DNA from: a bacterium
GTDB taxonomy: Bacteria > Electryoneota > RPQS01
Direction: 5' to 3'
Length of the DNA: 64,000 nt
Assembly (NCBI GenBank): GCA_023382385.1
Contig: JAHDVH010000002.1
Coordinates: forward strand, 510,219-574,218
In this document: positions 2,016 through 32,166 of the stretch, piece by piece
Layout: the number at the start of each line of letters is the position of its first letter
How positions within the stretch are numbered: the stretch's first letter is position 1
The notes under the pieces: model-generated
What the model was told of the DNA's origin: nothing
The model's database searches: none
Seen by the model: only the letters and a program-made list of their open reading frames with translations
Made by a program: the position numbers and the translations under genes

Positions 2016-2044
2016 TTGACAACAGGCACTTTTTATCATACATT
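2016..2044 (+). promoter_or_regulatory. Strong promoter of the phage-like head module
   Basis: This is TTGACA at 2016-2021, 17 bases, TACATT at 2039-2044. Transcription would start near 2051, giving a short leader before the ATG at 2074. The same two hexamers and spacing precede two of the exported-protein genes (12374-12402 and 15086-15114), so the host polymerase should read it. Confidence 0.75.
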
Positions 2045-2073
2045 ATTGCCGTCCTCAACAACGGAGCCTCTCC

Positions 2074-2460
2074 ATGACCCCTCTTTCCGATTCCCCCCTT
2101 TCCCAAGCCCTCGAACTCCTCTCCAACCCCACCACTCTCGATCTCGATGAAGTCGCCCGTCAACTTGAACTCGCTACTCTCGAAAACGCCGCCCTGCGCG
2201 GACTCCTCAGCCTCTATGAAGATGAACTCCGCCGCGAACTAAGCGGCAAACTCGAACTCGCCGGCTTCCTGCCTGCCTGTCCCGACCCGCAAACCGCCCT
2301 CACCTTGAGCGGCGAGCAGCTTCTGTCCGCCCGCCGCCACGCTTCCCTCCTCTTTAACCAAGTCTTTCAACTTGCCCCCATCGCCCGGAGCGCTACTCCT
2401 TCCAAAACTCCCCGCGTGCCCACCGACCTGCTGCTCCGGTCAGGCCTCGGCACAACCTAA
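2074..2460 (+). CDS. Unknown first gene of the head module
   Basis: The product is 128 residues: a helical, leucine- and glutamate-rich N-terminal two thirds (LDEVARQLELATLENAALRG looks coiled-coil-like) and a Pro/Ser/Arg-rich tail. There is no signal peptide. GGAG lies 9 bases before the ATG. It is the first gene after the module promoter, ahead of the decoration and capsid genes, a place where phages often keep a scaffold or small assembly protein. That role is only an inference from position and helical content. I do not recognise the family. Confidence 0.6.
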   Translation: MTPLSDSPLSQALELLSNPTTLDLDEVARQLELATLENAALRGLLSLYEDELRRELSGKLELAGFLPACPDPQTALTLSGEQLLSARRHASLLFNQVFQLAPIARSATPSKTPRVPTDLLLRSGLGTT

Positions 2461-2504
2461 CACTCCCTACTCTCTCGCTTGCAGTCTTGCCTCAACTGAC
2501 TTGC

Positions 2505-2540
2505 GTCGTCATCCTGAAGGCCGTCGCGGCCTGAAGGATC
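2505..2540. repeat. REP-like palindromic repeat, copy 1
   Basis: This is a 36-bp imperfect palindrome with outer arms ATCCT/AGGAT and inner arms GGCCG/CGGCC. A copy identical at 35 of 36 positions lies at 4277-4312 in the same orientation. Both sit in gaps of the head module, each shortly before a gene that has no Shine-Dalgarno sequence. Confidence 0.7.
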
Positions 2541-2588
2541 TCTCTGGCATCCATCCTCACACCTCACTCCTCCAACCCCACTCTCATT

Positions 2589-3032
2589 ATGCCCACTTCT
2601 TTCCGCATCGACAATGACGGTGCAGGATCCAATCTCCTGCTCACCTTCGAAGTAGACACCACCTCCAACAAAGACTTCACGTGGAGCGATTTGGACTCCA
2701 ATCTCACCGCCGCCGCGATGGCCGACCATAACAAAGTTGGAATGGGCGCCGCCGGATCTCGCTTGATTGGCAAAGTCATTTCCGTCTCTGAAGCCCTCGT
2801 CAGCGGCACCGCCGTTCCGCAACTCTGCACCGTGCAGGTCACCGGCGTCGCGCGCTTCCTCTATTCCGGCACAGCACCCGCCGTCGGACAAAAAGTCGAA
2901 TGCGACGGCACCGGCAAAGTCCGCCGCGCCACCACCTCCGCCGATGTTCCGACGGGCGGCACCACTCATCGCGGCCTCGTCATCGCTGTCGACACCACCG
3001 CCACCACCTGCGACGTCCTGCTCGACGCATAA
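2589..3032 (+). CDS. Phage capsid decoration/cement-like protein
   Basis: The product is 147 residues, small, beta-rich and soluble. The C-terminal half (VGQKVECDGTGKVRRA, then GLVIAVDTTATTCDVLL) follows the pattern of DUF2190-type capsid cement proteins, in which a short beta barrel stabilises the capsid surface. It directly precedes the major capsid gene, the usual place for this function. The ATG has no obvious Shine-Dalgarno sequence; its leader is pyrimidine-rich. The family call rests on pattern and context, so it is moderately sure. Confidence 0.6.
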   Translation: MPTSFRIDNDGAGSNLLLTFEVDTTSNKDFTWSDLDSNLTAAAMADHNKVGMGAAGSRLIGKVISVSEALVSGTAVPQLCTVQVTGVARFLYSGTAPAVGQKVECDGTGKVRRATTSADVPTGGTTHRGLVIAVDTTATTCDVLLDA

Positions 3033-3096
3033 CAACCCTTCCCCGCCGTTGTGCGTCTCCTGACCCGCAAAGGCAACCACTCCACAACAAGAAATT

Positions 3097-4167
3097 ATGA
3101 CCCTCGACTTTTCCCAAGCCTACTCTCTCCGCGACAAAGTGCAGGAACACTCCCGCAGCGGAAACCTCGCCCTCTATTCCGAAGCACAGGAACGCGGCAT
3201 GACCTTCTCCGAACTCCTTGAAGAGTTCGACCCCTCGCCGCGCAAACCCGACGGACAACTCGATACTCCGCTCGACGCCTTCGAACGTCAACTCTTTCTC
3301 GCCGACATCACCTTCACCGGCCGCAACGCCGCCACGCTCGAACAGTTTCTCTCCGGCCCCGGCATGATTCTCGCCCCCGAATACGTCTCGCGCGAAATCC
3401 GTCGCGGCTACAAAATGGTGCAGGACCCCGAAGAACTCGTCGCCGCAGTTGTTCCCGAGCGCGGCCCCACCGTCACACCTATCTACATCAAAACCGATTT
3501 TGCTAAAAAGCCGCAGCGGCGTCACGATCACGCCGCCTACCCTGTGGTCAAACTCGCCTACCGACAGAAAGAAACCGCGATGATTGACCGCGGGCGTCAG
3601 TTTGATTTCAGCTACCGCATTCTCAAAAACCAGAAGCTCGCCGAGTTCCGCGTCTTCCTCTGGTGGATCGGCGCGCAGCTTGCGGCGGATGAAGTCTCCG
3701 AAATCTACAACATCGTCGTCAACGGTGACGGCACCTCGCCCGCTCCCTCAAACTCCTTCAACGGCTCCGGCGGCACCTTCGCCTACACCGACCTCGTGCA
3801 TCTCGCAATGGCCTTCGATGGTCCCGCGCGCATGACGCACCTGCTCGGCGCGAAGTCCGACATCGAAGTCGTGTTGAAAATCAACGAGCTGCAGGACGCG
3901 CAGGCCTTTCAAGGCGGAGCCTTCGCCAACACCGGAGACTACCGCACCTTCCTTCCGCTCAACACACGCCTCGTCGCTGTCGAAGGAGCAACCGCCACGA
4001 AATTCGCCGCGCTCGACCATCGCTTCGCCGTCCGCGAGTCCGTCGCGCAACCGCTCCTGATTGAAGCCGAAAAAATCATCTCCCACAAACTCGAATCCGC
4101 CGTCGTCTCCAAAGAGTCCGTCTACACCATCATGGTGGACGAAGCCGTCGCCATGAGCGATTACTAA
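3097..4167 (+). CDS. Phage-like major capsid protein
   Basis: The product is 356 residues and is probably the HK97-fold shell protein of a tailed-phage-type head. The N-terminus is helical and charged (residues 1-70), followed by a region that could be the E-loop and P-domain (FAKKPQRRHDHAAYPVVKLA, then the helix around KNQKLAEFRVFLWWIGAQLA) and a C-terminal domain with regular beta strands. Length and gene order (decoration protein before, connector after, terminase downstream) fit a capsid gene. It is intact. It has only a weak AAGAAA before its ATG, odd for a protein needed in hundreds of copies. No signal peptide is present, so an encapsulin-like or phage particle would assemble in the cytoplasm. 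Confidence 0.75.
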   Translation: MTLDFSQAYSLRDKVQEHSRSGNLALYSEAQERGMTFSELLEEFDPSPRKPDGQLDTPLDAFERQLFLADITFTGRNAATLEQFLSGPGMILAPEYVSREIRRGYKMVQDPEELVAAVVPERGPTVTPIYIKTDFAKKPQRRHDHAAYPVVKLAYRQKETAMIDRGRQFDFSYRILKNQKLAEFRVFLWWIGAQLAADEVSEIYNIVVNGDGTSPAPSNSFNGSGGTFAYTDLVHLAMAFDGPARMTHLLGAKSDIEVVLKINELQDAQAFQGGAFANTGDYRTFLPLNTRLVAVEGATATKFAALDHRFAVRESVAQPLLIEAEKIISHKLESAVVSKESVYTIMVDEAVAMSDY

Positions 4168-4337: not shown

Positions 4338-4703
4338 ATGAAATCTAATCTCGCCATCGCCCTCGCCAGTCAACCGCTCCTCTGCTTCACCTTCAGCGGC
4401 ACGACCGGCTCCTCTTCTCAATATCTCCCCTCCGCAGGCGGCATCGCCGGCGACGGCCTGCCGCTTCCCTTGGACGGCACGCTGGTCAGCATCACCGTCT
4501 TTGACGGCTCCGACATCTACTCCGACATCGGTGACGTCACCTTTGCCGCGCACGACAGGCTCTCCGTCTACTGTCAGAATGACGGCGGTGTCTTCACCGT
4601 TCGTGTTCGCTTGAATGGCGTCTCCACCTCGCTTCGCGCCGAATCGGTCCCGCTAAGTTCCACACTGCAAGTCACCGTCGTCGTTGCCGTCAATCGCTTC
4701 TAA
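4338..4703 (+). CDS. Head-module hypothetical beta-rich protein
   Basis: The product is 121 residues starting MKSNLAIALASQPLLCFTFSG. The N-terminus is mildly hydrophobic but not a convincing signal peptide, because a beta-rich sequence follows without a cleavage pattern. Residues 40-120 alternate as in small beta-sandwich proteins (LVSITVFDGSDIYSDIGDV, TVRVRLNGVSTSL). It lies between the capsid and connector genes, where phages often carry a minor head or completion protein. I do not recognise it. The ATG was chosen because the upstream in-frame sequence lies in the palindromic repeat. Confidence 0.55.
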   Translation: MKSNLAIALASQPLLCFTFSGTTGSSSQYLPSAGGIAGDGLPLPLDGTLVSITVFDGSDIYSDIGDVTFAAHDRLSVYCQNDGGVFTVRVRLNGVSTSLRAESVPLSSTLQVTVVVAVNRF

Positions 4704-4712: not shown

Positions 4713-5534
4713 ATGCCCTTCACCGACCTTCTCACTGTTCGCAAACACCTCGTCGCTTCCAACACTCCCGCGCTTCCCTTTGAAAACATCCCCCTGACAC
4801 TCTCAGGCACAACACCCGTCCCCCTGCCGCAGGGAAATGTCCTCGCTTCGGTCAGCGTCAAGTGGCTCGCCTCCGAACTTCCCACGCTCGAACCCTCCGT
4901 CGTGCTCGTCAATGAAAACTGGGCCTCGCTTTCTTATGCGAACCTCGCGCGCGGCAGCGTCGTTGTCGCGAGCACCTTAAGTCTCGCGCAGGTCTTCACC
5001 GAAGAACACGACTACCGCGTCAATCATGAAGAAGGCAAGCTCAAACGCCTCGCTTCCGGTGCCATTCCCAATTCCTTCCCCGCCGTCGTCTGGTATGGCC
5101 GCTATCACCTCTTTGCGGAATCTTCAGACTTCGTTGTGGACTACGCCGCAGGCACCGTGCGCCGCGCCTCCGGCAGCACTATTCCCGACGGGGCGACCGT
5201 GCTCGTGGACTACATCGTCGCGCACGGCTCCGCCGAAGACGTGCTGATTGAACAGGCCATCGTCGAAGCCGAAGACGTCATCCTCCGCAGTTTGCGCGAA
5301 GGCTACTCCGCATCCTCCACCGACCAGGGCCTGCAATCAGGAGCCACCTACCTCGCGCTGCACATCGTCGCGCGCGGCATGGCCGCGCTGATGCTCACGC
5401 GCAATCTCGGCAGCGATGCCTACTCCCGCGCCCGCGAATGGCTTCAGCTTTCCGATAAATGGCACACCGCCGCGTGGAACGTGCTCGCACCCTTTGTCAC
5501 TCCTCACTCTCTCCGTTCAACCCTTGTCGAATAA
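4713..5534 (+). CDS. Head-tail connector-like protein
   Basis: The product is 273 residues. The N-terminal part is beta-rich and contains two similar strand segments (EEHDYRVNHEEGKLKRLASG and SSDFVVDYAAGTVRRASGST, each followed by an IP-containing loop). The C-terminal part from about residue 170 is helical (EDVLIEQAIVEAEDVILRSL, then HIVARGMAALMLTRNLGSDA), like gp6-type connectors that bind the portal. It has the best ribosome site of the module (AAGGAG, 5 bases before the ATG). It starts 9 bp after the previous gene and ends 1 bp before the next, so the genes are one operon. The connector role is inferred from position and the helical end. Confidence 0.5.
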   Translation: MPFTDLLTVRKHLVASNTPALPFENIPLTLSGTTPVPLPQGNVLASVSVKWLASELPTLEPSVVLVNENWASLSYANLARGSVVVASTLSLAQVFTEEHDYRVNHEEGKLKRLASGAIPNSFPAVVWYGRYHLFAESSDFVVDYAAGTVRRASGSTIPDGATVLVDYIVAHGSAEDVLIEQAIVEAEDVILRSLREGYSASSTDQGLQSGATYLALHIVARGMAALMLTRNLGSDAYSRAREWLQLSDKWHTAAWNVLAPFVTPHSLRSTLVE

Positions 5535-5535
5535 C

Positions 5536-5742
5536 ATGAATATCTTCACCGAAAAAGCCAAGCAGAAAGTGCTCGACACGCTTTACGATCTCGCCACCGA
5601 AGCCAAGAGCACCAACGTCTCCGCCATCAAACTCTATCTCGAACTCGCCGGCGACCAGTCTCCCGCCGAATCGCTCACCACCGAACAGGCTTTGGAAATC
5701 CTCCGTCAGGCCACGACACGCTTGGAGCCGGAACAGCAATGA
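5536..5742 (+). CDS. Small terminase-subunit-like protein
   Basis: The product is 68 residues, all helical, with the phrase AIKLYLELAGDQSP typical of the end of phage small terminase subunits, followed by an acidic tail. It lacks room for the usual N-terminal DNA-binding helix-turn-helix, so it may be a reduced or partial TerS. Its stop overlaps the start of the large terminase gene (ATGA), so translation is coupled. Small terminase subunits select DNA for packaging; loss of sequence-specific DNA binding would fit random packaging, but that is speculation here. Confidence 0.5.
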   Translation: MNIFTEKAKQKVLDTLYDLATEAKSTNVSAIKLYLELAGDQSPAESLTTEQALEILRQATTRLEPEQQ

Positions 5743-7109
5743 ACAAACATGACTTCAATGAATTGCTCCTCTGCTCGCGTTCGCCGTGGCGCTTCCTGAC
5801 CTCACACGTCCAGACGCAGGACCCTGCGCACGGCACCCGCGCCTTTCCCGACTTCGACTACCTGCGTGAGCTGATTCACGCCGCGCAGACGCATCGCTAT
5901 CTGCTGGTTCCCAAATCACGGCAGATGATGGTCACATGGAGCATGGTCGCGCTCTTTCTCTGGCGCGCGCTCTTCAAACAGCCCGGCGTCTATCTCTTCC
6001 TCTCGCGCAATGAACGCTGTGCCGAAGAGCTGCTCGAACGCGCGCGCTTCATCCTCAGTCATCTGCCCGCCGTGATGCGGCCCAAACTCGCCACCAACAA
6101 CAAGTCCGAACTCGAATTCGCGGGACTGCATTCGCGTCTGCTCTCGCTGCCCGCCACTCCCGACGGCCCGCGCATGTATTCGCCCACCGCCGTCTTCTGG
6201 GATGAAATGGCCTTCACGCCCTTCGATTCGCACATCTGGACAGCCCTGCAGCCTGCTCTGCAGAGCGGCGGCTCTTTCGTCGGAGTCTCTTCATCCGGCG
6301 GCGCGCACAATCTCTTCGCTCGCATGATTTCCGATTGCGCGGCGGTGCCCGAAGCGAAGACTTCGCAGAACTTTCACATTCACCGCATCCACTACTCCCT
6401 GCACCCGCAGCGCGATGCCCGATGGAAACGCGACGCCGCGCGCGGACTCTCGCAGGCCGCGTGGGAACGCGAACAGGAAATCTCCTTCGACTCATCGGAA
6501 GACCTTGTCTATTCCGAGTTCGACCCCGTCGTGCACATTCTCAAAGATGAGTTCCATCCGCGCAAGGATTGGCCGCTCTACCGCTCGATTGATTTCGGCT
6601 ATCGCAAACCATTCGTCCTCTGGCTGCAGCGCATCCCTTCCGGTGAATACATTGTCTTTTCCGAATGGGAAGGCCGCGACGCCACCACCGAAGCCATGCA
6701 CGCCGCGCTGCTCCGCACAGACTTGCTCTTCGGTCTGCACGAATATGATTTCACGTGGACTTCCTGCGATCCTTCCGGTGCCGCCGCGCAGGACAGCGGC
6801 ATCTCGCCTGTGGATTTTCTCGTTCGCAACGGCCTGAAGCTGCGTTTTCGCTCTTCCAAAATTCTCCCCGGTGTCGAACGCGTCAAATCCGCCCTGCGCG
6901 ACGCCTCCGGCAAAGTGTCGCTACTGATTTCGCCGCGCTGCGAAAAACTGATCCGCGACCTCGCCCGCTATCGCTGGGCCGCCAACAAAGAGGAGCCCCT
7001 GAAAGACGGCGACTCCGACCATTCTCTCGATGCGCTCCGCTACTTCTTTGTCAACCTCGATGCTGCCGAAGAGCACTACCCCGCAACTCCGCGCGTCGCC
7101 AGACTCTAA
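5739..7109 (+). CDS. terL: Phage terminase large subunit
   Basis: The product is 456 residues, a motor plus nuclease that packs DNA into phage heads. An atypical Walker A (VPKSRQMMVTW, residues 57-67, without the usual glycine) is followed by Walker B with its catalytic glutamate (AVFWDEMAF, 151-159) and an SSSGG coupling motif (184-188). The C-terminal RNase-H-like nuclease shows IDFGYRKP (Asp285), SCDPSG (Asp344) and a final acidic cluster DGDSDHSLDALRY (423-435), so all metal-binding acids appear present. The length is normal. The start is coupled to the small subunit gene. The gene is the last of the plus-strand module and ends 6 bp before a bidirectional terminator; the portal, normally next, lies 15 kb away. 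Confidence 0.88.
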   Translation: MNKHDFNELLLCSRSPWRFLTSHVQTQDPAHGTRAFPDFDYLRELIHAAQTHRYLLVPKSRQMMVTWSMVALFLWRALFKQPGVYLFLSRNERCAEELLERARFILSHLPAVMRPKLATNNKSELEFAGLHSRLLSLPATPDGPRMYSPTAVFWDEMAFTPFDSHIWTALQPALQSGGSFVGVSSSGGAHNLFARMISDCAAVPEAKTSQNFHIHRIHYSLHPQRDARWKRDAARGLSQAAWEREQEISFDSSEDLVYSEFDPVVHILKDEFHPRKDWPLYRSIDFGYRKPFVLWLQRIPSGEYIVFSEWEGRDATTEAMHAALLRTDLLFGLHEYDFTWTSCDPSGAAAQDSGISPVDFLVRNGLKLRFRSSKILPGVERVKSALRDASGKVSLLISPRCEKLIRDLARYRWAANKEEPLKDGDSDHSLDALRYFFVNLDAAEEHYPATPRVARL

Positions 7110-7165: not shown

Positions 7166-9751
7166 TTATCTCTTCGGCACGGCCTTCGGCATCGGCTGTC
7201 CCGTCAGCGCACCCGAACAGTCGCGCACCACAACGAAGAACCGTTGATCCGTCATGATCGGAGCTTCGTAGAAATGCCGCCCGGGAGTCGGAAAACCGAT
7301 CCCCGTCAGATAACTATAACCGTCCGGATACACGGCGGATGCGTCGTCTGATGAAAAGATATACACGATTCCCGCTTCCGCCTGCCACCATTCGAGCCGG
7401 TAGCGCGGATACACGGCAAGCGTCCGCTGAATCGTCAGACTGTCCACACCCACACAGTAGCTGCCTAAACAGAACGCGCGTTCCTCCGCCGGATAGGTTC
7501 CGTATTCCTCTTCCCACGTCACACCCGGTATCCCGTCGCCCCACGGCGTCGAAATCCACGCGAAGTCGCACTCATTGCTTCCCGCTGTGGCAATCCGCAG
7601 CCAGCCTGTCGTCAGCGTGCAGATTGGTGAGAACTGCACGTCAAACTGCAGCAGCGGAAAAGTTCCGTTATATCGCAGACCGAGATCCGTTCCCAGCGCG
7701 CTCACGGTGTAAATCTGTTCCGCGCCCTGCGCACTGTCAATAAATGCAAGTTCGAACTCGATGGGGTCGTCTGCGCACTCTGTCAGCATCGGCGCTCCCC
7801 AATCCACCATCATGCCCCAGAAACGTATCTGGCCGATGGCTCCGCCCACCGAATAGTTGTCATACTGCTGGAATGGAGTCTCGTAATCCGAGACGCCGAT
7901 CACCCATTGCTCGTCCGGCAGGTGCGGAGCCTGAGCCGATAGTCCTCCCATCTCTCCGCACTCCGGCCTCGTGTAGCACGACACGACTCCGCACTGTGTC
8001 TGTTCGTAGAACGTGCCGCTGAGCGCCGTGCATTCCGAACGCGTCAGGACCTCGCACGTCCGCGCTTGTATCTCGCCATAACAGCACGCGCCGATGCAAT
8101 CCGAGACATACAGATACACCGGACCGATGTCATTCTGAGTCGCACCTTCGATCGTCAGATAATATGTTCCGGGCGTCAGCGGCACGCAATTCAACTCCGA
8201 CAAGCCCGGAGAGCCGCAGCCTCCGCCGCCTTCCGCAATCACCTCGCCGCAGCAGTCGTCCGTCAAATACAGGTAGCTGTCCCAATCCTCTCCCGACCCG
8301 CACAGCGAAAACGTCCAATCCGAGGCGTAGGGAATCGTAATGGAATAAGTTAGGTCGAGGCTGCTGCGCAAATTGCAATCATTGCCCGCATTGACGGTGC
8401 TACCGGAGATAGACTGCGGCGCGACCAGCCCGCCGTCCACCAGACAGCCGTTGCAGGGAATCGTCTCCAGCAGCACACGATACTCGCGCTTCTCGTTGAC
8501 GCCTGGCGCAAATGCCGACCCCACAAACAGCTCCATCTCGCCCGCCGGCATGCAGGGTGTGACGTAAGATATCGAGGTGCAAACGCTGTACGGGTACATG
8601 ATATAGTAATCGTCAACCACACACGGCGGGTAGAGCACACCTACCATGACTTGCAGCGGCGTCTCCGTTTCAATCGTCACGCGCAATGAGCACGGTTCAT
8701 TCAATGTGAAGCGGTAAAAATCCGTATCTCTGAAGGGAGCACCGGTCGCATCCAGATAGGTGAATGCCACGCCGCACACCGTTTGAAACGGCTGAACCGT
8801 CCCCCACAGGATGTTTCCGCTCTCGTTGTTGCAGGCTCCGTTACAGTCGTTCCACAGATTCTGTTCGCCCAGAACTTCCACACACTCCCGCGCATCCGCC
8901 GGCTGACACTCGACCACGCAGCTGTCCGAAATTTGCAGAGAATATGCACCCGCGTTTGTCGAGTAGCCGTCAATGATGATGTAGTACGTTTGGAACGCGT
9001 TCAGCGTCAAACCCAAATAGGATTGAAGCCCGAGGGCGTCGTCGTTGCAGCCGACCTGCGTCGAACCCGGACAGGTTTCGCCCGCGTTCACGTAGAGATA
9101 CGTATCGTAACTCGACCCCTCCAGCGAAATATGGTAGGTTTGTGTTGCCAGCGGAATAAACTTGTAAATCACATCCGGCGCGTTGGTCTGATTGCAGGGC
9201 TGCAGCGGTGCGAAATTGTTCACTCTGCCCATCGTCGTTCCCGAGTCGTAATACGGCACACCGGTGACGACCGTGGCGGGACACGCGTCGCTGCCCTGAT
9301 CGAGAGCGTTGCGTTCCCGATTCTCCGGACGCTGTGCGTAAAGCTCGTTTAACTGCTCTTTCAGATTCGCGCGCGTCACCTCATCCGGCAGCGACGTTCC
9401 CATTCCGCCGAGATATGCGAACTCCAGCGCGCTGATCTGCGCTTCGAGCGGGGTCACCTCTCGTGGGCGAATAATCCGCTCCGCGATAAACGGCTCACGT
9501 TCGAGAGGCGTGCTGAACTCAGCAGACTGCTTCGCCGATATATTACCGGATGCAGATACAAGCTCGTTCAGTCGCGTCACCCATCCCGCATCGGGAGTTT
9601 GACCTGCGGCGCGAGTCTCCGCGATGCTCTTTTCAAGTTCAGCAATTTCAATTTGGGTTGCAGAAAGACTCGCAGGCAACGTACCGGTTTTAGCGGCATA
9701 GACCCAGCACAAACACCCTAACACAACTAAGAATACATATATGTTTTTCAT
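7166..9751 (-). CDS. Large exported multidomain beta protein, paralogue A
   Basis: The product is 861 residues. A signal peptide (MKNIYVFLVVLGCLCWVYA) is followed by two short helical pairs (31-70 and 98-145), then three prepeptidase-C-like beta domains at about 150-275, 300-435 and 436-552. Next comes a cysteine-rich GACCYG segment (553-598), a lectin-like beta region to about 770, and a C-terminal Fn3-like domain starting VDSLTIQ. There is no YPNPFN sorting domain, so export beyond the periplasm is not explained. The start was chosen for its AAGGAG and signal peptide; an in-frame extension of 32 codons overlaps the promoter. It is monocistronic. Three close paralogues follow at 9889, 12478 and 15201. 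Adhesion or surface-layer roles are possible but not shown. Confidence 0.8.
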   Translation of the reverse strand: MKNIYVFLVVLGCLCWVYAAKTGTLPASLSATQIEIAELEKSIAETRAAGQTPDAGWVTRLNELVSASGNISAKQSAEFSTPLEREPFIAERIIRPREVTPLEAQISALEFAYLGGMGTSLPDEVTRANLKEQLNELYAQRPENRERNALDQGSDACPATVVTGVPYYDSGTTMGRVNNFAPLQPCNQTNAPDVIYKFIPLATQTYHISLEGSSYDTYLYVNAGETCPGSTQVGCNDDALGLQSYLGLTLNAFQTYYIIIDGYSTNAGAYSLQISDSCVVECQPADARECVEVLGEQNLWNDCNGACNNESGNILWGTVQPFQTVCGVAFTYLDATGAPFRDTDFYRFTLNEPCSLRVTIETETPLQVMVGVLYPPCVVDDYYIMYPYSVCTSISYVTPCMPAGEMELFVGSAFAPGVNEKREYRVLLETIPCNGCLVDGGLVAPQSISGSTVNAGNDCNLRSSLDLTYSITIPYASDWTFSLCGSGEDWDSYLYLTDDCCGEVIAEGGGGCGSPGLSELNCVPLTPGTYYLTIEGATQNDIGPVYLYVSDCIGACCYGEIQARTCEVLTRSECTALSGTFYEQTQCGVVSCYTRPECGEMGGLSAQAPHLPDEQWVIGVSDYETPFQQYDNYSVGGAIGQIRFWGMMVDWGAPMLTECADDPIEFELAFIDSAQGAEQIYTVSALGTDLGLRYNGTFPLLQFDVQFSPICTLTTGWLRIATAGSNECDFAWISTPWGDGIPGVTWEEEYGTYPAEERAFCLGSYCVGVDSLTIQRTLAVYPRYRLEWWQAEAGIVYIFSSDDASAVYPDGYSYLTGIGFPTPGRHFYEAPIMTDQRFFVVVRDCSGALTGQPMPKAVPKR

Positions 9752-9757
9752 TAGACA

Positions 9758-9808
9758 CTCCTTCAATACCTTGAAGTTCAAGTTAGTGCACAATTTCACA
9801 TTCTGCAA
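9758..9808 (-). promoter_or_regulatory. Promoter and ribosome-site hairpin of paralogue A
   Basis: On the minus strand TTGCAG (9803-9808), 17 bases and TAACTT (9780-9785) form a moderate promoter. The leader then folds into a perfect 6-bp hairpin (9761-9776, CTTCAA/TTGAAG) whose 3' arm runs into the AAGGAG site at 9758-9763. Folding could reduce translation. Confidence 0.5.
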
Positions 9809-9836
9809 ACCTCTGTGACATTCACACAAAATGAAA

Positions 9837-9860
9837 AGCGGCCCCATCGCTGGAGCCGCT
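9837..9860 (-). terminator. Terminator of paralogue B gene
   Basis: The arms AGCGGC and GCCGCT are followed on the minus strand by TTTTCATTTTG. It lies 29 bp after the stop at 9889. Confidence 0.65.
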
Positions 9861-9888
9861 CTGTATCAAGTCTTCGGTTTGAAAGAAA

Positions 9889-12345: not shown

Positions 12346-12373
12346 GCGGCACCTCGGGTAAAATTGGACTCGT

Positions 12374-22042: not shown

Positions 22043-23332
22043 ATGTTCTCCTTCCTTCGCAAGAAAACACAAGACCTTCCCGCGCGCGTCAGCACGCAGC
22101 GCGCCACCAACACACAACCCGTCGTGATTGCCAACGACGCGATTGCTCCGCCGCGCAGCGTGACGGGCAATCTGTTCAGCGCGACGCTCGACGGCAACGA
22201 ATTCATCTGGACCGGCACCAATCGCAGCGAGTTTTATCGCTACCTGCGCGACCACGTGCCTATCATCTCCTCCGCCGTCTGGGCGTGGGTGCATCTGTGC
22301 GCGACGCCGCAGAGCTACTCTCTGTCCGGCAGCGAGCGCGAGAAGCGTCGAGCCGACGCAATTCTCTCCGCACTTGACAAACGCCTTCTCGAAAACCCGC
22401 TCGTCCGGCGGGACGGCATGGCACACCTGACGGAGCAGTTTTTTCTCGAACTGTTCACCACCGGAAGATTCTGCGGTGAACTGATTCCATTGCCCGACGG
22501 CAAGGGGATAGACTACTTTCACACGATTGACGCCGACCTGATTCAATGGGAACGCGACGGGCGATGGAAGGCATATCTCGAAGATGAAACGGGCCGGCGC
22601 ACGTATCTGAATCCGCAGCGCTTCTTCTACGCATCGCTCGGCACGGATATCACCAATCCGCGCGGCATCGAACCGCTCGCCTCCATTCCGTTTGTCGCGC
22701 AGATTCAGGAAGCGATGCTCTCGGATATGGCCAGAAGCGCGCGCATGGCCGGCACGCCGCGGCTGCAGATTAAAGTCTCGCCGCCGAAGACCTTTCCGCA
22801 TGAAACGGACCGTGAATATCAGGCGCGTGCCAACCGCTACTTTGACGATACCGTCGCACAGTTTCGCAAACTCGCTCCCGACGACAATGTTTTCACGTGG
22901 GACGACGTCGAGATTACGCTCATCGGCGGCGACACACACCGCAACTTCACATGGCGGCTGAATCGCGAGCAGGTGATTGAAGACGTGATCACAGGACTCA
23001 GACTTTATCCGTGGGTCGTGGGCCGTTCGCACGGCACAACCAAGAACTGGGTTGAAGCGCAATTCAATCTACTGATGCAGATTGTGGATTCGGTGCAGCA
23101 TCTCGGCAAAAGCCTGGGGAATTTCCTGCGCAACACGGAGCTGCGCATGCAGGGCAATCTCTGCGCATGCGAGCACGTCTTCGCGCCGAATCAGGACCCG
23201 TTTCAACTCTCCAGAATGCAGGCCCGCAATATCGAGTTTGACACGATTGACAAGAAGGTCAAGCGCGGCTATATCTCGAAGGACGACGGCGCGCGCGAGT
23301 TGGGTTATTCGCGCGCGTATGCTGCGGAATAA
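22043..23332 (+). CDS. Phage-like portal protein
   Basis: The product is 429 residues, the dodecameric ring protein through which DNA enters the head. The N-terminus is basic and disordered (1-30), followed by portal wing-like helices (RSEFYRYLRDHVPIISSAVWAW, residues about 62-83) and a beta clip region (FFYASLGTDITNPRGIEPLA). A long stem-like helical part contains WVVGRSHGTTKNWVEAQFNL near residues 325-344, the pattern in which portal proteins select the channel. The length is typical. It stands alone between minus-strand exported-protein genes, 15 kb from terL, with no clear Shine-Dalgarno sequence and no obvious own promoter. The frame is intact, which argues for selection. Confidence 0.78.
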   Translation: MFSFLRKKTQDLPARVSTQRATNTQPVVIANDAIAPPRSVTGNLFSATLDGNEFIWTGTNRSEFYRYLRDHVPIISSAVWAWVHLCATPQSYSLSGSEREKRRADAILSALDKRLLENPLVRRDGMAHLTEQFFLELFTTGRFCGELIPLPDGKGIDYFHTIDADLIQWERDGRWKAYLEDETGRRTYLNPQRFFYASLGTDITNPRGIEPLASIPFVAQIQEAMLSDMARSARMAGTPRLQIKVSPPKTFPHETDREYQARANRYFDDTVAQFRKLAPDDNVFTWDDVEITLIGGDTHRNFTWRLNREQVIEDVITGLRLYPWVVGRSHGTTKNWVEAQFNLLMQIVDSVQHLGKSLGNFLRNTELRMQGNLCACEHVFAPNQDPFQLSRMQARNIEFDTIDKKVKRGYISKDDGARELGYSRAYAAE

Positions 23333-25880: not shown

Positions 25881-25923
25881 GTCGTGTCCTCAGGTTATCC
25901 TATTCAACGTGTGGCAAATGAAA

Positions 25924-25950
25924 ACCGCGCGTCCACAAGGAACGTGCGGT
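25924..25950 (-). promoter_or_regulatory. Terminator-like hairpin in the leader of the 25880 gene
   Basis: On the minus strand ACCGCACGTTCC pairs with GGACGCGCGGT around a TTGT loop and is followed by TTTTCATTTG. It lies between the promoter (25996-26024) and the start codon, so it could act as an attenuator. It could also be the leftover terminator of a gene that once stood upstream. Confidence 0.45.
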
Positions 25951-25995
25951 CCCGACTCAATTTTGCAAACCCATCCATGAATTGACTCATTAAAC

Positions 25996-26024
25996 AATAT
26001 AATATGTTAGAATGCGTGCGTCAA
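25996..26024 (-). promoter_or_regulatory. Promoter of the 25880 gene
   Basis: On the minus strand this is TTGACG, 17 bases, TATATT. The leader would be about 110 bases long. Confidence 0.7.
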
Positions 26025-26099
26025 TAGAATCAGGCGATACAAATAAACTCTCGGCAGGTCGCCTATTATCGGGTTAGTTTCTATTGCCATAGAAAACAA

Positions 26100-26130
26100 A
26101 GCGGCTCGACGCTTAGAGCATCGAGCCGCT
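26100..26130 (-). terminator. Terminator of the 26154 gene
   Basis: The perfect 10-bp arms AGCGGCTCGA and TCGAGCCGCT are followed on the minus strand by TTGTTTTC. Confidence 0.8.
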
Positions 26131-26153
26131 GAACAGACGAGGAACGAGTGGCG

Positions 26154-27611
26154 TTACTTCAGCAACAGCATCTTCTGCGTAGAGCTGAAGGAACCGCTGC
26201 GCAACACGTAGAAGTAGATACCCGTCGGCAGACCGGCGGCGTCAAACTGCACAGTGTGCGAACCAGCTTCCACGCGGCCATTCACGAGCGTCGCAACGGT
26301 TGCGCCGAGGGCATTGGAAATGCTCAAGGTCACCTGCGCGGCTTCGGGCACGTCAAACTGAATGCTCGTGCTCGGGTTGAACGGATTCGGATAGTTCTGA
26401 TGGAGCGCGTATTCCGTGATGAGCGCGCTGTTGTTCAGACCCGCTTCGACCGTGCGCGTACCGTGACTGCGGCGGATCCCGTTGAGGTCTTCGGTGAACA
26501 GCTCGTAGCTGTAGGTGACTCCGGCAATCACGTCGCGATCGGTCCACGAATAGTTCGTGCGCGTCTCGCTGACTCCGGCACCGGCAATCTCAGCAACCTG
26601 CGAACCGTTGCGGAAGATTTCGAAGTGGTCGTTGCCGTTTTCAGTGGCGGTTGCCCACGCGAGCTGAATCGCGCCGTTGGTCGCACCGGCCGTGAAGCTC
26701 AACATCTCGACGGCGAGCTGACGCTCGAAGAAGACGCAGAAACAACCGTCTTCTTCGGCTTCAAAGATGGCGTGCCAGTAGCCGCCCGGAGCCTGACATT
26801 CGAGGCCCGTGGAGTCATAGCTTGCCACCCATGTCAAACCGGCGGGCATCAAAGCGCCCGGGCAATGATCCAGGACGAAGACCGGCTGTCCGTCCAGCGG
26901 GCAGCACCAGTAGACTTCGATGGGCGTGCCGCAATACTCGAGACAGAACGTGGAACCGATTTCCACCCACGTTGGCGGCATCGGCGGGCAGGGCTGCGTA
27001 ACTTCGCAATCCGGAGGAATGACCAGCACGCCCTGGTTGGTGGTGCCGTCCACGAAGTTCTGATTGATGTTATCCACGACTTCGTTCAGATCGCTGACGC
27101 TCTTTCCCGGAGGCAGAGCACCCAAGTTACCGCCTAAAACGGCATTCGCCATCGTGAGAATTTCGGCTACGGTGTAACCAGTGAACGGTCCGGCGCCGAC
27201 TTCCAACCAGCTGAAGTCACCAAAGCCCGGAACACCAGCAAGCCCAAAACCCACACTGATTGACAGCGCGGTGACCTGGCCCGCAAACACACCTGCACTC
27301 GTGGAAGAGGGATCAGTATAGTTCTGCGTCAGGACGCCCGGCGTGCTGCCTGCCGGCAAGAAGGTGCGGACAGCGTTTGCACTGGTGAAGTGAATAGTGA
27401 AGCCGCCGCCAATCGTCAGGCCTGCCGGAAATACTGATGGAAACCAGGCGTCGCGAATACAGCCGGGATTGCCGCCATTGCAATTGTTTCCCCAGCCGCC
27501 TTGAGTCTGAGTCCGGTATTCACCGGGATCAATGGTGCAATCGCCGGGCTGTGCGCCCGCAACCGCAGCGAGCAAAAAGATTCCGCAAAAAAGTGTCAGG
27601 AGTTTCTTCAT
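26154..27611 (-). CDS. T9SS-sorted exported protein with RTQTQGGWG domain
   Basis: The product is 485 residues with a signal peptide (MKKLLTLFCGIFLLAAVAGA). Residues 30-200 form a conserved domain of unknown role with RTQTQGGWG, NPGCIRDAWF, a VRTFLPAG segment and TSAGVFAGQVTAL. A cysteine-rich insert follows (200-290), then an Fn3-like domain (IQLAWATATENGNDHFEIFR) and a type A sorting domain (LHQNYPNPFNPSTSIQFDV, end KMLLLK). A paralogue lies at 61363-62565. The domain is common in exported proteins of FCB and neighbouring phyla; I know of no assigned activity. It is monocistronic with a strong promoter, and GGGGAG is its ribosome site. Confidence 0.82.
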   Translation of the reverse strand: MKKLLTLFCGIFLLAAVAGAQPGDCTIDPGEYRTQTQGGWGNNCNGGNPGCIRDAWFPSVFPAGLTIGGGFTIHFTSANAVRTFLPAGSTPGVLTQNYTDPSSTSAGVFAGQVTALSISVGFGLAGVPGFGDFSWLEVGAGPFTGYTVAEILTMANAVLGGNLGALPPGKSVSDLNEVVDNINQNFVDGTTNQGVLVIPPDCEVTQPCPPMPPTWVEIGSTFCLEYCGTPIEVYWCCPLDGQPVFVLDHCPGALMPAGLTWVASYDSTGLECQAPGGYWHAIFEAEEDGCFCVFFERQLAVEMLSFTAGATNGAIQLAWATATENGNDHFEIFRNGSQVAEIAGAGVSETRTNYSWTDRDVIAGVTYSYELFTEDLNGIRRSHGTRTVEAGLNNSALITEYALHQNYPNPFNPSTSIQFDVPEAAQVTLSISNALGATVATLVNGRVEAGSHTVQFDAAGLPTGIYFYVLRSGSFSSTQKMLLLK

Positions 27612-27682
27612 GTGTTCGTGCTCCCCAAGAGAGTTTTTTATCCAGAATTAGATGTGAATTGTCATATTTTCGTGCGCTGAGC

Positions 27683-27711
27683 AATATACGACACGTTCAG
27701 GCGCAAGTCAA
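27683..27711 (-). promoter_or_regulatory. Promoter of the 27611 gene
   Basis: On the minus strand this is TTGACT, 17 bases, TATATT, about 72 bp before the ATG. Confidence 0.75.
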
Positions 27712-27743
27712 CTCTCTATGTTACTATTTCATTATAACTTAAA

Positions 27744-27863
27744 GGGTCAGTTCTTTTCGTAAATTGAAACAGGATTTCGGCTTAGGTTGCCAATCAGCAA
27801 CCTTTCAGGTGTTCAGACTTGAGAGATGATATATCTATGCCTCTTGACTAATTCAACTGACCC
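27744..27863. repeat. Inverted repeat flanking an AT-rich spacer
   Basis: GGGTCAGTT (27744-27752) and AACTGACCC (27855-27863) are 9-bp inverted ends around about 100 bp that also hold an AGGTTGC/GCAACCT hairpin. No target-site duplication is clear, so a small mobile repeat is only a possibility. No gene is seen between 27612 and 27923. Confidence 0.3.
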
Positions 27864-27870
27864 AAATGGC

Positions 27871-27895
27871 GACGGCCCTCACAAAGAGGGCCGTC
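27871..27895 (-). terminator. Terminator of the 27924 gene
   Basis: The perfect 10-bp arms GACGGCCCTC and GAGGGCCGTC enclose an ACAAA loop. The T-run on the minus strand is poor (GCCATTTGG). Confidence 0.65.
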
Positions 27896-27923
27896 TGAGA
27901 GCGATAATGAAAGTTGGTGAAGT

Positions 27924-30900
27924 CTACTTGTTCGGAGCGGCTTGCTCAACAATTTCGTTGGTCATCAGGAACGCTGGATTCTCGAGTATCGCGCCTTGCA
28001 CGGCAGCATCCTTGGGCTGCAGGACGGCCAATTCAACCTCGTCCTGCGATGCAAGGTCGCTGGCCACCGCAAGCACGGCCTCTGCGGTCACGGCAAAGAA
28101 CATCTGTGCGGCAGGTTCATTGATGCATCCGGAGCAGTCGAAGAAGTTCGCGCCCACCGTGGCAATCAGATTGGCGGGATTCACGATGTTGTTCTGATCG
28201 ATTGAACGATACACGTAATATGTGTTGGCGTTCTGAACGGCGGACCAGCGCAGCTCGGCGGAGTCGGTAGTCGGCTCGATGCGAATGGTCAAGCTTTCGG
28301 GCGCAACCACCACCGGAGGCGGGCAGGGAACACCAGTCATATTGAGCGCATAGTTTCCGCAGTTCGTGCCGAAGCCGTGTATGAGAATCTGATAGTTGGT
28401 ATTCGCTTCGGCAATGAAACTCGCGGTGCTTTGCAGGGTGTAGTTTCCGCCGCAATAGTTATCGTCATTGCAGACAATCAGCGGGGCGATGTTCGGACAG
28501 GTTCCGCCGTAGATACCGAGGCCGGTGTCATAGCCCGAACCGCAGAGCGACACGGTGACGTTCTGACAGGAGGTCGAGTAGTAGTTATACACGACTTCGC
28601 GCGACGTCGAACCGACACACGGCAGATAGTTGTTCACCATACAACAGGTATTACCGAAATCGCTGAAGGGCAGCGAGGGAATTTGAAGTGCGGTGTTGCA
28701 GACATCGCCCGCGGGCGCGCCCTGCTGAGCGCCGCCGGAGAAATACACCATGAACTGTCCTTCACTCGTGCCGTAACCGCAGACAATGATGTAATAGGTG
28801 CGGTTGGCTTCGGCATTGAACAGCACGGAGCTTTTCAGGCCGTTATTGCCGCAGGCGTCATCGTTCCAGGCCACCACAGTAGAACCCGGGCAGGGCCCTC
28901 CGGTGCGCACTTCAAGTCCGGTATCATAGAGCGTCAGATTGTTATCGCAGGTGTGAACCTGAATCGTCTGGCAGACCGGCGACGTATACTGGAAGAAGAC
29001 TTCCTTGGAACTGGGACCGACGATGGTCGCAAAGTCGTCGCGAGCCGGGCGTGTGTCGCCCGAATAGTTGGCCGGAAGACTGGGGACGATAATCGGTGAC
29101 GAACAGTCGTCGTTGTAGACTTCCAATTCGAGCGAGGACATTCCCTGCGCGCCGTTGTAGCCGTCCATGTGGATATAGTAGGTCGCGTTGGCCGAAGCGT
29201 TGAAGACAACCGTGCTGGCCAAGGCATCGCTGCCGCAGAAATAGTCGTCGTTGCAGCCCGCGCTGAACGAACCCGGACAGGCTCCGCCGTAGCGCACTTC
29301 GAGAATCGTGTCGAAATTGATGAAGCAGGTCTTGGCACGCATGGCCTGATTGTAGGGCGACACCCAATACCAGTGCACATCCTGCCCGTCATTGGGTTGA
29401 CAAGTGGGATTCACGTCGTCGTTGCCGCAGTAGTTCGCGCCGTAGGTGAAATACGGGACTTCGGTGATTTGATAGCCCGGACACTGCGCGTTGCCCTGCG
29501 CACCCGCTGCAACGCCGGTGACGTTCAGCACGAAGTTGCCCCACGCCGTGGCGTAGCCTTCGAGCACGATGACGTATTGCACGCCGCCCTGCGCGTTGAA
29601 CGTGACCTGGCTTTGCGTGCCGCAGAAGTCGTCGTTACAGCCGGCGGTCGTAAACCACTGATTGCAGTTGCCCTGAAAGACAAACAGCTCGGTGTCGAAA
29701 TTTGAACCGCACGTCGAAACCGTGACCTGATGGTCGCAAGGCAGTGTCAAGGTGTAGATGACTTCCGGCGAGTTGTTTGGGTAGTTGCAGGCGACTGTGT
29801 TGAAGTTGTTCGAAGCGAACAGCGTGCTTCCCGAAGCGGAAAACGGCAACGTGGTGATGTGCGTGAAGCCGGGTTGACCGCAGGAATCATTGGGCGGACC
29901 TTGCGGCTGCCAATAGCCGGCGAAGTTTGCGCCGCTGTTGTTGGGATCAAGCCAATCGCGCAGGCGGCCGCTCTGAGTTCCGTCACCTTCCCATGCGACA
30001 GAGAGCTTGCCGTATTTGGCGATATTGTTGGTGTTGGGATCGCAATCCCAATTTCCGCCGTGCAGCGGACCGACCACGAAGCCGCCGGAGTTAATCATCG
30101 GCGAGCCGGACGACCCCGGTTCCATTTGTCCATTGTCGAGAATCGTCTGCCAATGGGTGTTCGGCCCCTGACCGTTCCAATCGGTGCTGGTCGCTGGGTG
30201 ATAGTCTTCATGCGCCTTCTTCACGTCGGCGCGCGGGTGATGAATTCCATAGGAGCTTGAGGCCGCAATGTCTGGACGATACCAGCCCATGTAGGCGGGA
30301 ATATACGGGGTGTTAGGCCGTGGTCGCGATAACCGCAGCAGAGCATGGTCCGTCGGCGCGTGCGACATCAGCAGCGTCGCATTGCTAATGACGAACGACG
30401 TGTTTCCGTCTGTGTTCGGTGAGCAGTTGGGGCTTTCGTAGTTGAAGAAGAAGAGCCAGTTATTCTGGTTACCGTTCAGGCAGTGGTTGGCAGTCAGAAA
30501 GAGCGGATCGCCGTTCTGCAATGTGTTGTTCAGCATCGTTCCTGAACAACTTCCGCCCATCGGATCGATGATCATGGCGACGGCGCGCTTTTCTTCCTGC
30601 ATATAGGCGAAGCAGTTGACGTTGATGTGGCAGGCCATCGCGTCTCCGAAGTTATCCAGCGCATCACGGTCGCGGGCTTCGCGGTCGTAGAAGTGGCGGT
30701 AGCCATGCAGCACACGCATGACGGACAGTTCGCCGATGTCCTGCTGGTCGGCGGGAACGAAATACTCAAGCGTGACGGCTTCACCGGAAGTTATCGGCGT
30801 AACGTTGGTACCATCCCAATTGTCAATGTAGGTATAGGGGCCGAAGACCATCGAGCGGTCGTCGTTATACAAGTACAATTCGCAGGGTTTGACGATGCGC

Positions 30901-31268
30901 CACTGGTCGTAGATCAGCCAGAGGTCTGTGGCATTAGGCGACACGATACGCAGCCGCCAGATGCGCGAGCCGTCGGGCAGGATTTCCCACGTGCCTGAAT
31001 TATTCAGGTTGAAACTGACTTCCTGCGGGCGGGCGACCTGTGCGGGCGGGACAAGCTCCTGCTCAAGGGCGAGTTCGTAGTTAACTTCATCTTCCAGCAG
31101 GAAGCTGCGATTGTCCAGCGCGGGCAGCGTCACTGTGGCAGGCGCGGACACGGCGAACTGCGAGCTGGGCGGTAGCGGCGCCGAAACGGATTGGAATTGG
31201 GCCAAGGCGGCCGAGTTGCAGCACCATAGAAGCACAAGCACACATAGCAACACATTCGTTCTGTACAT
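27924..31268 (-). CDS. Exported trypsin-like serine protease with repeat tail
   Basis: The product is 1114 residues with a signal peptide (MYRTNVLLCVLVLLWCCNSAALA). After a propeptide-like beta region (40-200) comes an S1 serine protease domain with the full triad: His262 in TANHC, Asp307 in APTDHALL, Ser387 in GSSGSP, with the order and spacing of lysyl-endopeptidase-like enzymes. Four prepeptidase-C-like domains follow (about 460-930), each with a CNDDxC or WNDDAC loop, then an Fn3-like domain (APESLTIRI) and an unusual helical tail without a sorting domain. It probably acts outside the cell or at the surface and may process other exported proteins. The leader has a terminator-like hairpin. 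Confidence 0.85.
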   Translation of the reverse strand: MYRTNVLLCVLVLLWCCNSAALAQFQSVSAPLPPSSQFAVSAPATVTLPALDNRSFLLEDEVNYELALEQELVPPAQVARPQEVSFNLNNSGTWEILPDGSRIWRLRIVSPNATDLWLIYDQWRIVKPCELYLYNDDRSMVFGPYTYIDNWDGTNVTPITSGEAVTLEYFVPADQQDIGELSVMRVLHGYRHFYDREARDRDALDNFGDAMACHINVNCFAYMQEEKRAVAMIIDPMGGSCSGTMLNNTLQNGDPLFLTANHCLNGNQNNWLFFFNYESPNCSPNTDGNTSFVISNATLLMSHAPTDHALLRLSRPRPNTPYIPAYMGWYRPDIAASSSYGIHHPRADVKKAHEDYHPATSTDWNGQGPNTHWQTILDNGQMEPGSSGSPMINSGGFVVGPLHGGNWDCDPNTNNIAKYGKLSVAWEGDGTQSGRLRDWLDPNNSGANFAGYWQPQGPPNDSCGQPGFTHITTLPFSASGSTLFASNNFNTVACNYPNNSPEVIYTLTLPCDHQVTVSTCGSNFDTELFVFQGNCNQWFTTAGCNDDFCGTQSQVTFNAQGGVQYVIVLEGYATAWGNFVLNVTGVAAGAQGNAQCPGYQITEVPYFTYGANYCGNDDVNPTCQPNDGQDVHWYWVSPYNQAMRAKTCFINFDTILEVRYGGACPGSFSAGCNDDYFCGSDALASTVVFNASANATYYIHMDGYNGAQGMSSLELEVYNDDCSSPIIVPSLPANYSGDTRPARDDFATIVGPSSKEVFFQYTSPVCQTIQVHTCDNNLTLYDTGLEVRTGGPCPGSTVVAWNDDACGNNGLKSSVLFNAEANRTYYIIVCGYGTSEGQFMVYFSGGAQQGAPAGDVCNTALQIPSLPFSDFGNTCCMVNNYLPCVGSTSREVVYNYYSTSCQNVTVSLCGSGYDTGLGIYGGTCPNIAPLIVCNDDNYCGGNYTLQSTASFIAEANTNYQILIHGFGTNCGNYALNMTGVPCPPPVVVAPESLTIRIEPTTDSAELRWSAVQNANTYYVYRSIDQNNIVNPANLIATVGANFFDCSGCINEPAAQMFFAVTAEAVLAVASDLASQDEVELAVLQPKDAAVQGAILENPAFLMTNEIVEQAAPNK

Positions 31269-31300
31269 ATCTGCTCCCTCTTTCCAAGTGGACGAACAAA

Positions 31301-31326
31301 CGCGTCGCCTGCAAAGAAACGACGCG
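31301..31326 (-). promoter_or_regulatory. Terminator-like hairpin in the protease leader
   Basis: The arms CGCGTCG (31301-31307) and CGACGCG (31320-31326) are followed on the minus strand by TTTGTTCG. They lie between the promoter and the start codon at 31268, the same arrangement as at 25924-25950. Confidence 0.45.
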
Positions 31327-31355
31327 CCAACAGTGAGAACAACCGAAACATCATC

Positions 31356-31384
31356 ATATTAGGATATTAAATTCCACAACACAA
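31356..31384 (-). promoter_or_regulatory. Promoter of the protease gene
   Basis: On the minus strand this is TTGTGT, 17 bases, TAATAT. The leader would be about 80 bases. Confidence 0.55.
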
Positions 31385-31467
31385 GCGTTGAACAACCCGA
31401 ATAAAAATAACAGGCCAGAAAGCCTCCTCATTAACCTCTTGAAATTCATACTTTGGAGTCCCACCTC

Positions 31468-32139
31468 ATGATCCTGCAATCCCGATCCCACCCCATCTCC
31501 CTCTTAAGCAGTCCAGAGCCTGCTGCACAACTCGACGAAATTAACGGACTGATTAATCCACCATTGGTTCCGTTATCAGCCGAAGATATTCACGTGCGCC
31601 GCTGCCGCTTAGCAGGAGATGCGATCGACAGCCACTTCGGCTGCTTTCGCACAGGCGATTTAGCGCGTCTGCTTGCGCTCACACACGGCGCACCGGCTTT
31701 AATTGGCCATAACCGTTACTCGACGGCAGTCGCACGGTTTTTTGGCGGCACGCTTGAATCTCATTTGAATCACCGCTACATCGTGCCGAATTTTTATTGG
31801 CCGAAAGCGCACAGCGGAGCCGAAGATTTCCGTGTGCTGTTGGACTGCGGGATTATCACGGAAGCATCGATAGCATTCACGTTTGAAAAACCTGCCTGTT
31901 CGGTCTGTGGCCACGACATTCGCGACTGCGAACACGACCCGGGCGTGCAATACGGCAAGCGGCTTTGCCATTACTGGTATGACGGAGTGGACCGCGTGCT
32001 GGAAGGGAGCTTTGTCTATCGCGGGAGCGAACCGGGAACGGGGATACTGGCGGAGATGAAGAACGTCAGGCGCGGCGTGAAGCAGAAGCGGATGACGATG
32101 CGATTTCGCGGGAGGGTGTATGAAGTGATGGTATCGTGA
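31468..32139 (+). CDS. Probable phage head-maturation protease
   Basis: The product is 223 residues. The segment DCGIITEASIAFTFEKPACS followed by VCGHDIRDCEH and then VDRVLEGSFVYRGSEPGTG resembles prohead proteases in which a CxxC...CxH insert precedes the Ser-containing strand; IGHNRY near residues 79-84 could give the catalytic histidine. Such enzymes cut the scaffold and capsid N-terminus during head assembly. I chose the ATG at 31468 because GGAG lies 9 bases upstream; a TTG five codons earlier would bury that site. It stands alone between two minus-strand exported genes, 8 kb after the portal. No promoter is evident. The call fits the missing member of the head set, but the family match is from memory of the pattern. 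Confidence 0.55.
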   Translation: MILQSRSHPISLLSSPEPAAQLDEINGLINPPLVPLSAEDIHVRRCRLAGDAIDSHFGCFRTGDLARLLALTHGAPALIGHNRYSTAVARFFGGTLESHLNHRYIVPNFYWPKAHSGAEDFRVLLDCGIITEASIAFTFEKPACSVCGHDIRDCEHDPGVQYGKRLCHYWYDGVDRVLEGSFVYRGSEPGTGILAEMKNVRRGVKQKRMTMRFRGRVYEVMVS

Positions 32140-32144
32140 ATAAA

Positions 32145-32166
32145 GGGCCGGTCTGTTGACCGGCCC
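32145..32166. terminator. Bidirectional terminator
   Basis: The perfect 9-bp arms GGGCCGGTC and GACCGGCCC enclose a TGTT loop, 5 bp after the plus-strand protease gene. On the minus strand it ends the 32191 gene with TTTATT. Confidence 0.8.

Follow-up and report, generated by a model that had tools for sequence, protein, structure and literature searches.

Gene transfer agents (GTAs) have been recognised in few groups, namely alphaproteobacteria, a deltaproteobacterium, a spirochaete and a methanogen. Capsid-forming phage satellites encode heads and packaging functions but no tail. The criteria listed for GTAs are caudovirion-like particles of caudoviricete-derived proteins, which contain mostly random host DNA and deliver it to other cells, encoded by elements that are fully endogenised, mostly vertically inherited and unable to package their own genes whole; their genomes are often spread across several loci (PMC9662315). 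In RcGTA, the GTA of Rhodobacter capsulatus, gp1 has no DNA-binding domain at its N-terminus, and the authors of that work propose that packaging is unspecific for this reason (PMC6854486).

We analysed a window of 64,000 nucleotides of bacterial DNA from the phylum Electryoneota, in which an earlier sequence-only reading had described phage-like head genes split into three islands. The open reading frame list and PHROG profiles agree with that description: nine intact head and packaging genes lie on the plus strand in three islands, with minus-strand exported-protein genes between them (Table 1). The two intervening blocks together make up 22.6 kb, close to the 23 kb claimed, and the left-to-right order TerS, TerL, portal, protease is as described, as is the lack of tail, lysis, replication and integration genes among the islands. 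Profile matches also support the identities given to the decoration protein, major capsid protein (MCP), TerL, portal and protease. The gene called a connector (con) is intact and belongs to the module, although its name is the least certain of the set; g1 and g4 are members of the module by conservation in relatives. Misassembly can be ruled out, since the same-genus genome G001, which was assembled independently, has the same three-island layout. We consider that the three islands probably constitute one host-owned, vertically inherited GTA-like viriform, predicted to make DNA-filled capsids under host control.

Table 1. Features of the head module and its surroundings, in window coordinates
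Feature	Position	Strand	Basis
Hairpin then T-run, terminator-like, upstream of head promoter	1855..1874	+	position conserved, 7 species in two families
Operator-like box TTGAACA-N3-G(T/G)(T/G)(T/C), about 61-63 nt upstream of -35	1953..1973	+	unique in window
Sigma70-type promoter TTGACA-N17-TACATT, head island 1	2016..2044	+	sequence alignment
g1, small protein at module start, families f1/f2	2074..2460	+	conservation
Capsid decoration/cement protein	2589..3032	+	phrog_4588 9e-11; 27 relatives
Major capsid protein (MCP)	3097..4167	+	phrog_3922 4e-36; 34/39 phylum genomes; dN/dS 0.10
g4, small beta-sandwich module protein	4338..4703	+	27 relatives; model pLDDT 91
con, probable neck/connector protein	4713..5534	+	model A6 pLDDT 86; also in Zixibacteria
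Small terminase (TerS) core without N-terminal HTH	5536..5742	+	L071 and f7 homologues retain HTH
Large terminase (TerL)	5739..7109	+	phrog_2 2e-26; T4 gp17 8e-20; alignment A2
Insertion block 1, exported-protein genes	7166..21884	-	varies even inside genus; outside ancestral module
Non-functional duplicate of portal 5' end	19541..19629	+	84% to 22036-22124
Portal protein	22043..23332	+	phrog_3753 9e-35; 33/39 genomes; dN/dS 0.087
Insertion block 2, exported-protein genes	23382..31268	-	ORF list, comparison with relatives
Head maturation protease	31468..32139	+	phrog_16951 6e-17; alignment A3; dN/dS 0.077

The family that the MCP matched is one of phage heads; it gave no match to any encapsulin family or to Pfam Phage_capsid (PF05065); neither the MCP nor the portal has a sequence match among solved structures. 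A search of phage databases, as the earlier reading had proposed, found that GenBank phages are distant (capsid at most about 30% identity, portal 22%). TerL matches large-terminase structures in addition to T4 gp17, and neither its Walker B residues nor its nuclease acidic residues vary (alignment A2). Its P-loop is deviant, being KSRQMMVTW in the window and KSRQM(M/L)(V/A)TW across relatives, without the canonical Gly-Lys of T4 gp17. We count this feature of the putative ATPase against the GTA-like reading. KSRQ-type deviant P-loops are found in functional phage terminases. The protease has invariant His and Ser positions and a C-x2-C..C-x-H zinc-type motif (alignment A3). We take phrog_16951 to be the head-maturation protease family of related phages, because L129 also matches the head maturation protease family phrog_80 and, weakly, Peptidase_S78. 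The predicted structure of con consists of a beta-repeat and a helical C-terminal domain, and its fold weakly matches chains from phage tails, necks and baseplates; the predicted fold of g4 is weakly lectin-like, again with weak fold-search matches.

The same single-copy head genes occur in the same order throughout the Electryoneota-type phylum, whose genomes bear the names Calditrichaeota, KSB1, LCP-89, Candidatus Electryonea and AABM5.125.24, and which we take to be GTDB Electryoneota. The MCP is present once per genome in 34 of the 39 MAGs; the portal is found in 33, among them three in which the capsid is missing, so that 37 of the 39 have one or both. G002, which is 97% complete, lacks both, and the element is therefore dispensable. 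MCP identity declines with kinship, from 89% within the genus to 73–78% within the family, 72–73% within the order and 53–62% within the phylum.

A genome scan returned 396 capsid relatives; among the best 80 of the 396, the distant ones are mostly from Zixibacteria, at about 35% identity. A related single-copy set is present in 112 of 133 Zixibacteria genomes, and a capsid relative in four of six genomes of the SM23_31-type phylum to which L071 belongs, the third group. The 29 Zixibacteria loci that were fetched have in common the order protease-decoration-MCP-X-con/g4. An exported protein usually comes next, and often a small membrane protein as well; where the contig extends far enough, the portal and a different, canonical TerL lie in front. 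Protein X has a weak BNR-type match. In a crude test for a Sec signal, 21 of 28 copies of the exported protein, sec2, pass, whereas MCP, con and protease score 0 of 29. Two phyla, and probably a third, have kept an ancient capsid/packaging machine by vertical inheritance, apparently with no tail. In the literature, we found no paper joining GTAs and Zixibacteria, and papers on Zixibacteria and prophages included none on the subject, judged by title.

We note that TerL type and gene order differ between Electryoneota and Zixibacteria, which bears on whether there was one domestication or two. Pieces of these loci are already listed as viruses in viral databases (L128, L274, L275).

Genome-wide, tail genes were sought with two hallmark profiles. 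The sheath profile has no match in the window's own genome or its closest relatives and matches 4 of 41 genomes overall, while the tape-measure profile matches 8 of 41 and is absent from G001. The sole tape-measure match in the window's genome lies in a separate prophage-like region (contig C1, L230/L231), which is missing from G001. The Zixibacteria loci contain no recognisable tail gene. A conventional tailed GTA, with tail genes elsewhere that the profiles used have missed, is made conceivable by the multi-locus genomes common among GTAs (PMC9662315), by the weak fold similarity of con to phage tail and neck chains, and by family f7, where the head genes have independently dispersed further (48 kb from MCP to portal in G017). 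The scarcity of sheath and tape-measure matches, together with the lack of a recognisable tail gene both in the Zixibacteria loci and in the free phage contig described below, nevertheless makes it unlikely.

Genes for lysis were found in sister families. In f3 the module is followed by two exported proteins, small membrane proteins and an amidase (phrog_822 7e-38), and in G008 an amidase follows the protease. Amidase_2 is absent from the window's own genome, which we count against the GTA-like reading with respect to release.

A 31.3 kb contig from IMG/VR (IMGVR_UViG_3300028837_001967; L279-L281), read from position 1433 to 31147, contains the whole module in the Electryoneota order, as decoration-MCP-...-con-TerS-TerL-portal-protease-small membrane protein-amidase. 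It also contains integrase (PF00589 4e-27), Sak4-like, helicase and topoisomerase-family genes, and there is no recognisable tail gene in the region read. Several Sec-type proteins, one of them with a Laminin_G_3 domain, are encoded within the structural block. In the MCP and portal trees the contig falls on the Electryoneota/SM23_31 side, on a long branch. The TerL-portal-protease part of the module is also present in L276/L277. Because this contig, the closest free phage, has no recognisable tail genes either, their lack may be ancestral, and the absence of tail genes from the host loci may not mean loss.

The same contig bears on whether the element is satellite-like, forming its own heads and borrowing tails from phages that infect the cell or reside in it. 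Such an element would be expected to have genes for heads and packaging but no tail, the window's genome has a separate tailed prophage-like region, and the free contig (L280/L281) combines integrase, recombination and helicase genes with the lack of a tail. The elements in host genomes, however, have no integrase, replication genes or mobility signal, and most relatives have no detected source of tails. Satellites are mobile, integrase-bearing islands with helper-derived tails, unlike the vertically inherited element here, and we regard this explanation as improbable.

The window TerS is 68 residues long and, like the proteins of f1, f2 and f8, holds the C-terminal core only. TerS of L071 (SM23_31 type) is 146 residues long and includes an HTH (phrog_24579 1e-7, Pfam HTH 1e-7), and f7 has an HTH form of 125–145 residues with weak Pfam HTH matches; in f3/f5 no TerS is evident between con and TerL. 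Alignments of the short TerS proteins are weak, and the assignment is by position and shared core. The HTH appears to have been lost from TerS in this clade, with distant homologues keeping it. TerS without an HTH in the window's clade, as in RcGTA, suggests packaging of unselected cell DNA, and of all the genes it gives the best indication of what would be packaged. Gene content makes DNA packaging by the head module likely, since the module has kept its genes for TerL, portal, protease and capsid. It is this retention that counts against a capsid exapted for some other job, for example as an encapsulin-like compartment or an exported shell. Such a role would suit the many exported-protein genes in and beside the module, and no delivery device was found; an enzyme compartment, however, needs neither a portal, nor a TerL with invariant nuclease residues, nor a protease, all of which are here under purifying selection. 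The locus differs from the lone HK97-type shell with a cargo enzyme, and without portal or terminase, that defines an encapsulin, and exaptation of this kind is distinctly improbable.

The genes decoration-MCP-g4-con-TerL-portal-protease are contiguous, or nearly so, on a single strand in G007, G013, G015, G029, G032, G035 and G037. Exported-gene insertions are present in G000, G001 and G008. In the window they encode large exported proteins, several of which are paralogues of one another, and the exported genes between the islands are 36–75% identical in G001 or have no full-length partner there. We conclude, from this comparison of layouts, that the split arose secondarily, when exported-protein genes were inserted in the sub-lineage of this host, because the block is contiguous in many relatives. 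The degenerate duplicate of the portal 5' end is likely to be a scar of insertion of the neighbouring genes. The module genes now span 30 kb in the window and at least 48 kb in G017.

Distances between head proteins were compared to those of rpoB, and are strongly correlated (Mantel r 0.935 for MCP, 0.936 for portal, 0.957 for protease and 0.861 for TerL; each p 0.001). The families form the same clades in the MCP tree as in the rpoB tree. In Zixibacteria the capsid is also correlated with rpoB (Mantel r 0.887, n = 29), with capsid distances of 0.01–0.47, near those of rpoB (0.05–0.38). The earlier reading had proposed measuring dN/dS in related genomes. Between G000 and G001, dN/dS calculated by NG86 is 0.08–0.22 for the core head genes (decoration 0.15, TerL 0.22, others in Table 1), indicating purifying selection, and 0.35–0.40 for the faster-evolving con, g4, TerS and g1; dS is high (0.7–2.1), making these values approximate. 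Integration and replication genes, a sporadic distribution and relaxed selection, the traits of an active or decaying prophage, were not found. Because of its congruence with rpoB and the strong purifying selection, we conclude that the head module is almost certainly domesticated and vertically inherited, rather than a decaying prophage. Of the three interpretations offered by the sequence-only reading, the first two, a domesticated capsid and a GTA-like element, are strongly favoured by single-copy occurrence, congruence with rpoB and purifying selection across the phylum and by the related single-copy sets of Zixibacteria, against a turnover of the interrupting exported genes even inside the genus. 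The third is rejected: a defective prophage being dismantled and broken by insertions would account for the three islands, the duplicated portal fragment and the lack of tail genes or integrase nearby, but phylum-wide single-copy occurrence, an rpoB-like tree, strong purifying selection and an intact, identical split layout in G001 leave it barely credible, and refuted already unless the conservation is a MAG binning artefact.

In seven f1/f2 species, a hairpin, a TTGAACA-N3-GTTT box and a TTGACA-N17-TATATT promoter precede the first head gene at nearly fixed spacing; the right half-site of the box is degenerate in the window's genome, and G008 has an imperfect -35. The position of the conserved box, far upstream of the -35, suggests that it is an activator site. 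The box resembles GAAC-N4-GTTY, but the recA genes of the clade have no such box upstream, and control by SOS/LexA is not supported. The conserved hairpin has no match in Rfam, which speaks against a known RNA gene. No common motif is evident by eye upstream of the portal and protease islands.

According to the GTA-like reading, an activator binding at the conserved upstream box would turn on transcription from the g1 promoter in a fraction of the cells. MCP, decoration protein and portal would then assemble into procapsids, to be matured by the protease, and TerL with the HTH-less TerS would fill the heads with unselected cell DNA by a headful mechanism. Release would be by lysis, for which sister families have linked amidase and holin-like genes, and delivery would be via the exported lectin-like proteins of the lineage, or via an unrecognised or borrowed tail. 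Particle formation, host-DNA packaging and induction are predictions from sequence; transfer to other cells is hypothesised. Counting against this reading are the lack of tail hallmarks, the dispensability seen in G002 and the faster evolution of con, g4 and TerS. More tentatively, the element could possibly be a tailless GTA, retained for as long as whole phyla have existed, descended from an unrecognised portal/terminase phage lineage that was never conventionally tailed, and attaching by Sec-exported lectin-like proteins. These proteins might join the capsid at or after lysis.

A GTA-like viriform would be new for these phyla. A capsid/packaging machine that most members of two uncultured phyla have kept as a single copy, its capsid diverging about as slowly as rpoB, would be one of the most ancient and widely distributed domesticated phage heads known. 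It would offer a new, independent lineage in which to test why genomes retain GTAs, and the lack of a tail makes it harder to explain how DNA could be delivered by such particles.

Compared to known systems, the element resembles encapsulins in being a domesticated capsid-type shell gene, but differs from them in retaining portal, TerL and protease. Like capsid-forming satellites it has heads and packaging without a tail, but satellites are mobile, with integrase and regulators, whereas the element here is single-copy, vertical and without mobility genes. The free contig L279-L281 has the same module order and exported proteins within its structural block, but its integrase and associated genes, its TerS with an HTH and its long MCP branch mark it as a mobile virus or satellite, not vertically inherited. 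The head proteins of the element here are similar to those of caudoviricetes, and tail genes were not found. We describe the element as GTA-like, not as a GTA, because packaging of random host DNA and its delivery are predicted or hypothesised and a tailed particle is doubtful. It differs from RcGTA and other recognised GTAs in its capsid and portal families (phrog_3922 and phrog_3753), its lack of tail genes, its occurrence in other phyla and its linked Sec-exported proteins. As expected of a fully endogenised element, its genes sit within contigs of the host in every relative, whether side by side or dispersed, with no integrase, and by distances and trees it has co-diversified with its hosts, mostly vertically. 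It shares with RcGTA and recognised GTAs caudoviricete-type head and packaging genes in the chromosome, dispersed loci and vertical descent (PMC6854486, PMC9662315), and with RcGTA a small terminase that lacks the DNA-reading domain (PMC6854486).

The same head module is carried, together with replication genes, by free contigs that are phage or satellite: loci L279, L280 and L281 (IMG/VR contig IMGVR_UViG_3300028837_001967), L276 and L277. An integrase is additionally present on L280/L281. No tail genes were recognisable on any of these contigs, and Sec-type exported proteins are abundant in their structural block. L128, L274 and L275 are also catalogued as viral contigs in IMG/VR; these pieces resemble the chromosomal element of the Electryoneota phylum.

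Within the window, the Cys-rich exported paralogues have diversified fast, as judged by comparing both species of the genus. The portal duplicate suggests a route by which the exported-gene cassettes were inserted, and both copies of the REP-like repeat sit in gaps separating head genes.

Repeated and duplicated features in the head-gene region
Feature	Position
Tandem array of paralogous Cys-rich exported proteins, 780-890 aa	7166-17846
Degenerate duplicate of portal 5' end	19541-19629 vs 22036-22124
REP-like palindromic repeat, 46 nt, 2 copies, 91%	2502-2547 and 4274-4319

Apart from the head module, the window's own genome has a prophage-like region (L230-L231, contig C1, about 5-45 kb). Its genes include one for a 1089 aa tape-measure protein, one resembling a DNA methyltransferase and one that probably encodes a tyrosine recombinase; a search of G001, a genome of the same genus, gave no tape-measure match.

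A Zixibacteria-type module occurs on L082, a contig labelled as a Thermoplasmata archaeon, which is probably mis-binned. In the Zixibacteria elements (L116, L103, L127), TerL has a canonical P-loop and Terminase_6N, and is undetected by the Electryoneota TerL profile. Despite this, capsid, con (probable neck/connector protein) and protease are homologous between the two groups; the unlike TerL would represent either a motor swap or a separate domestication.
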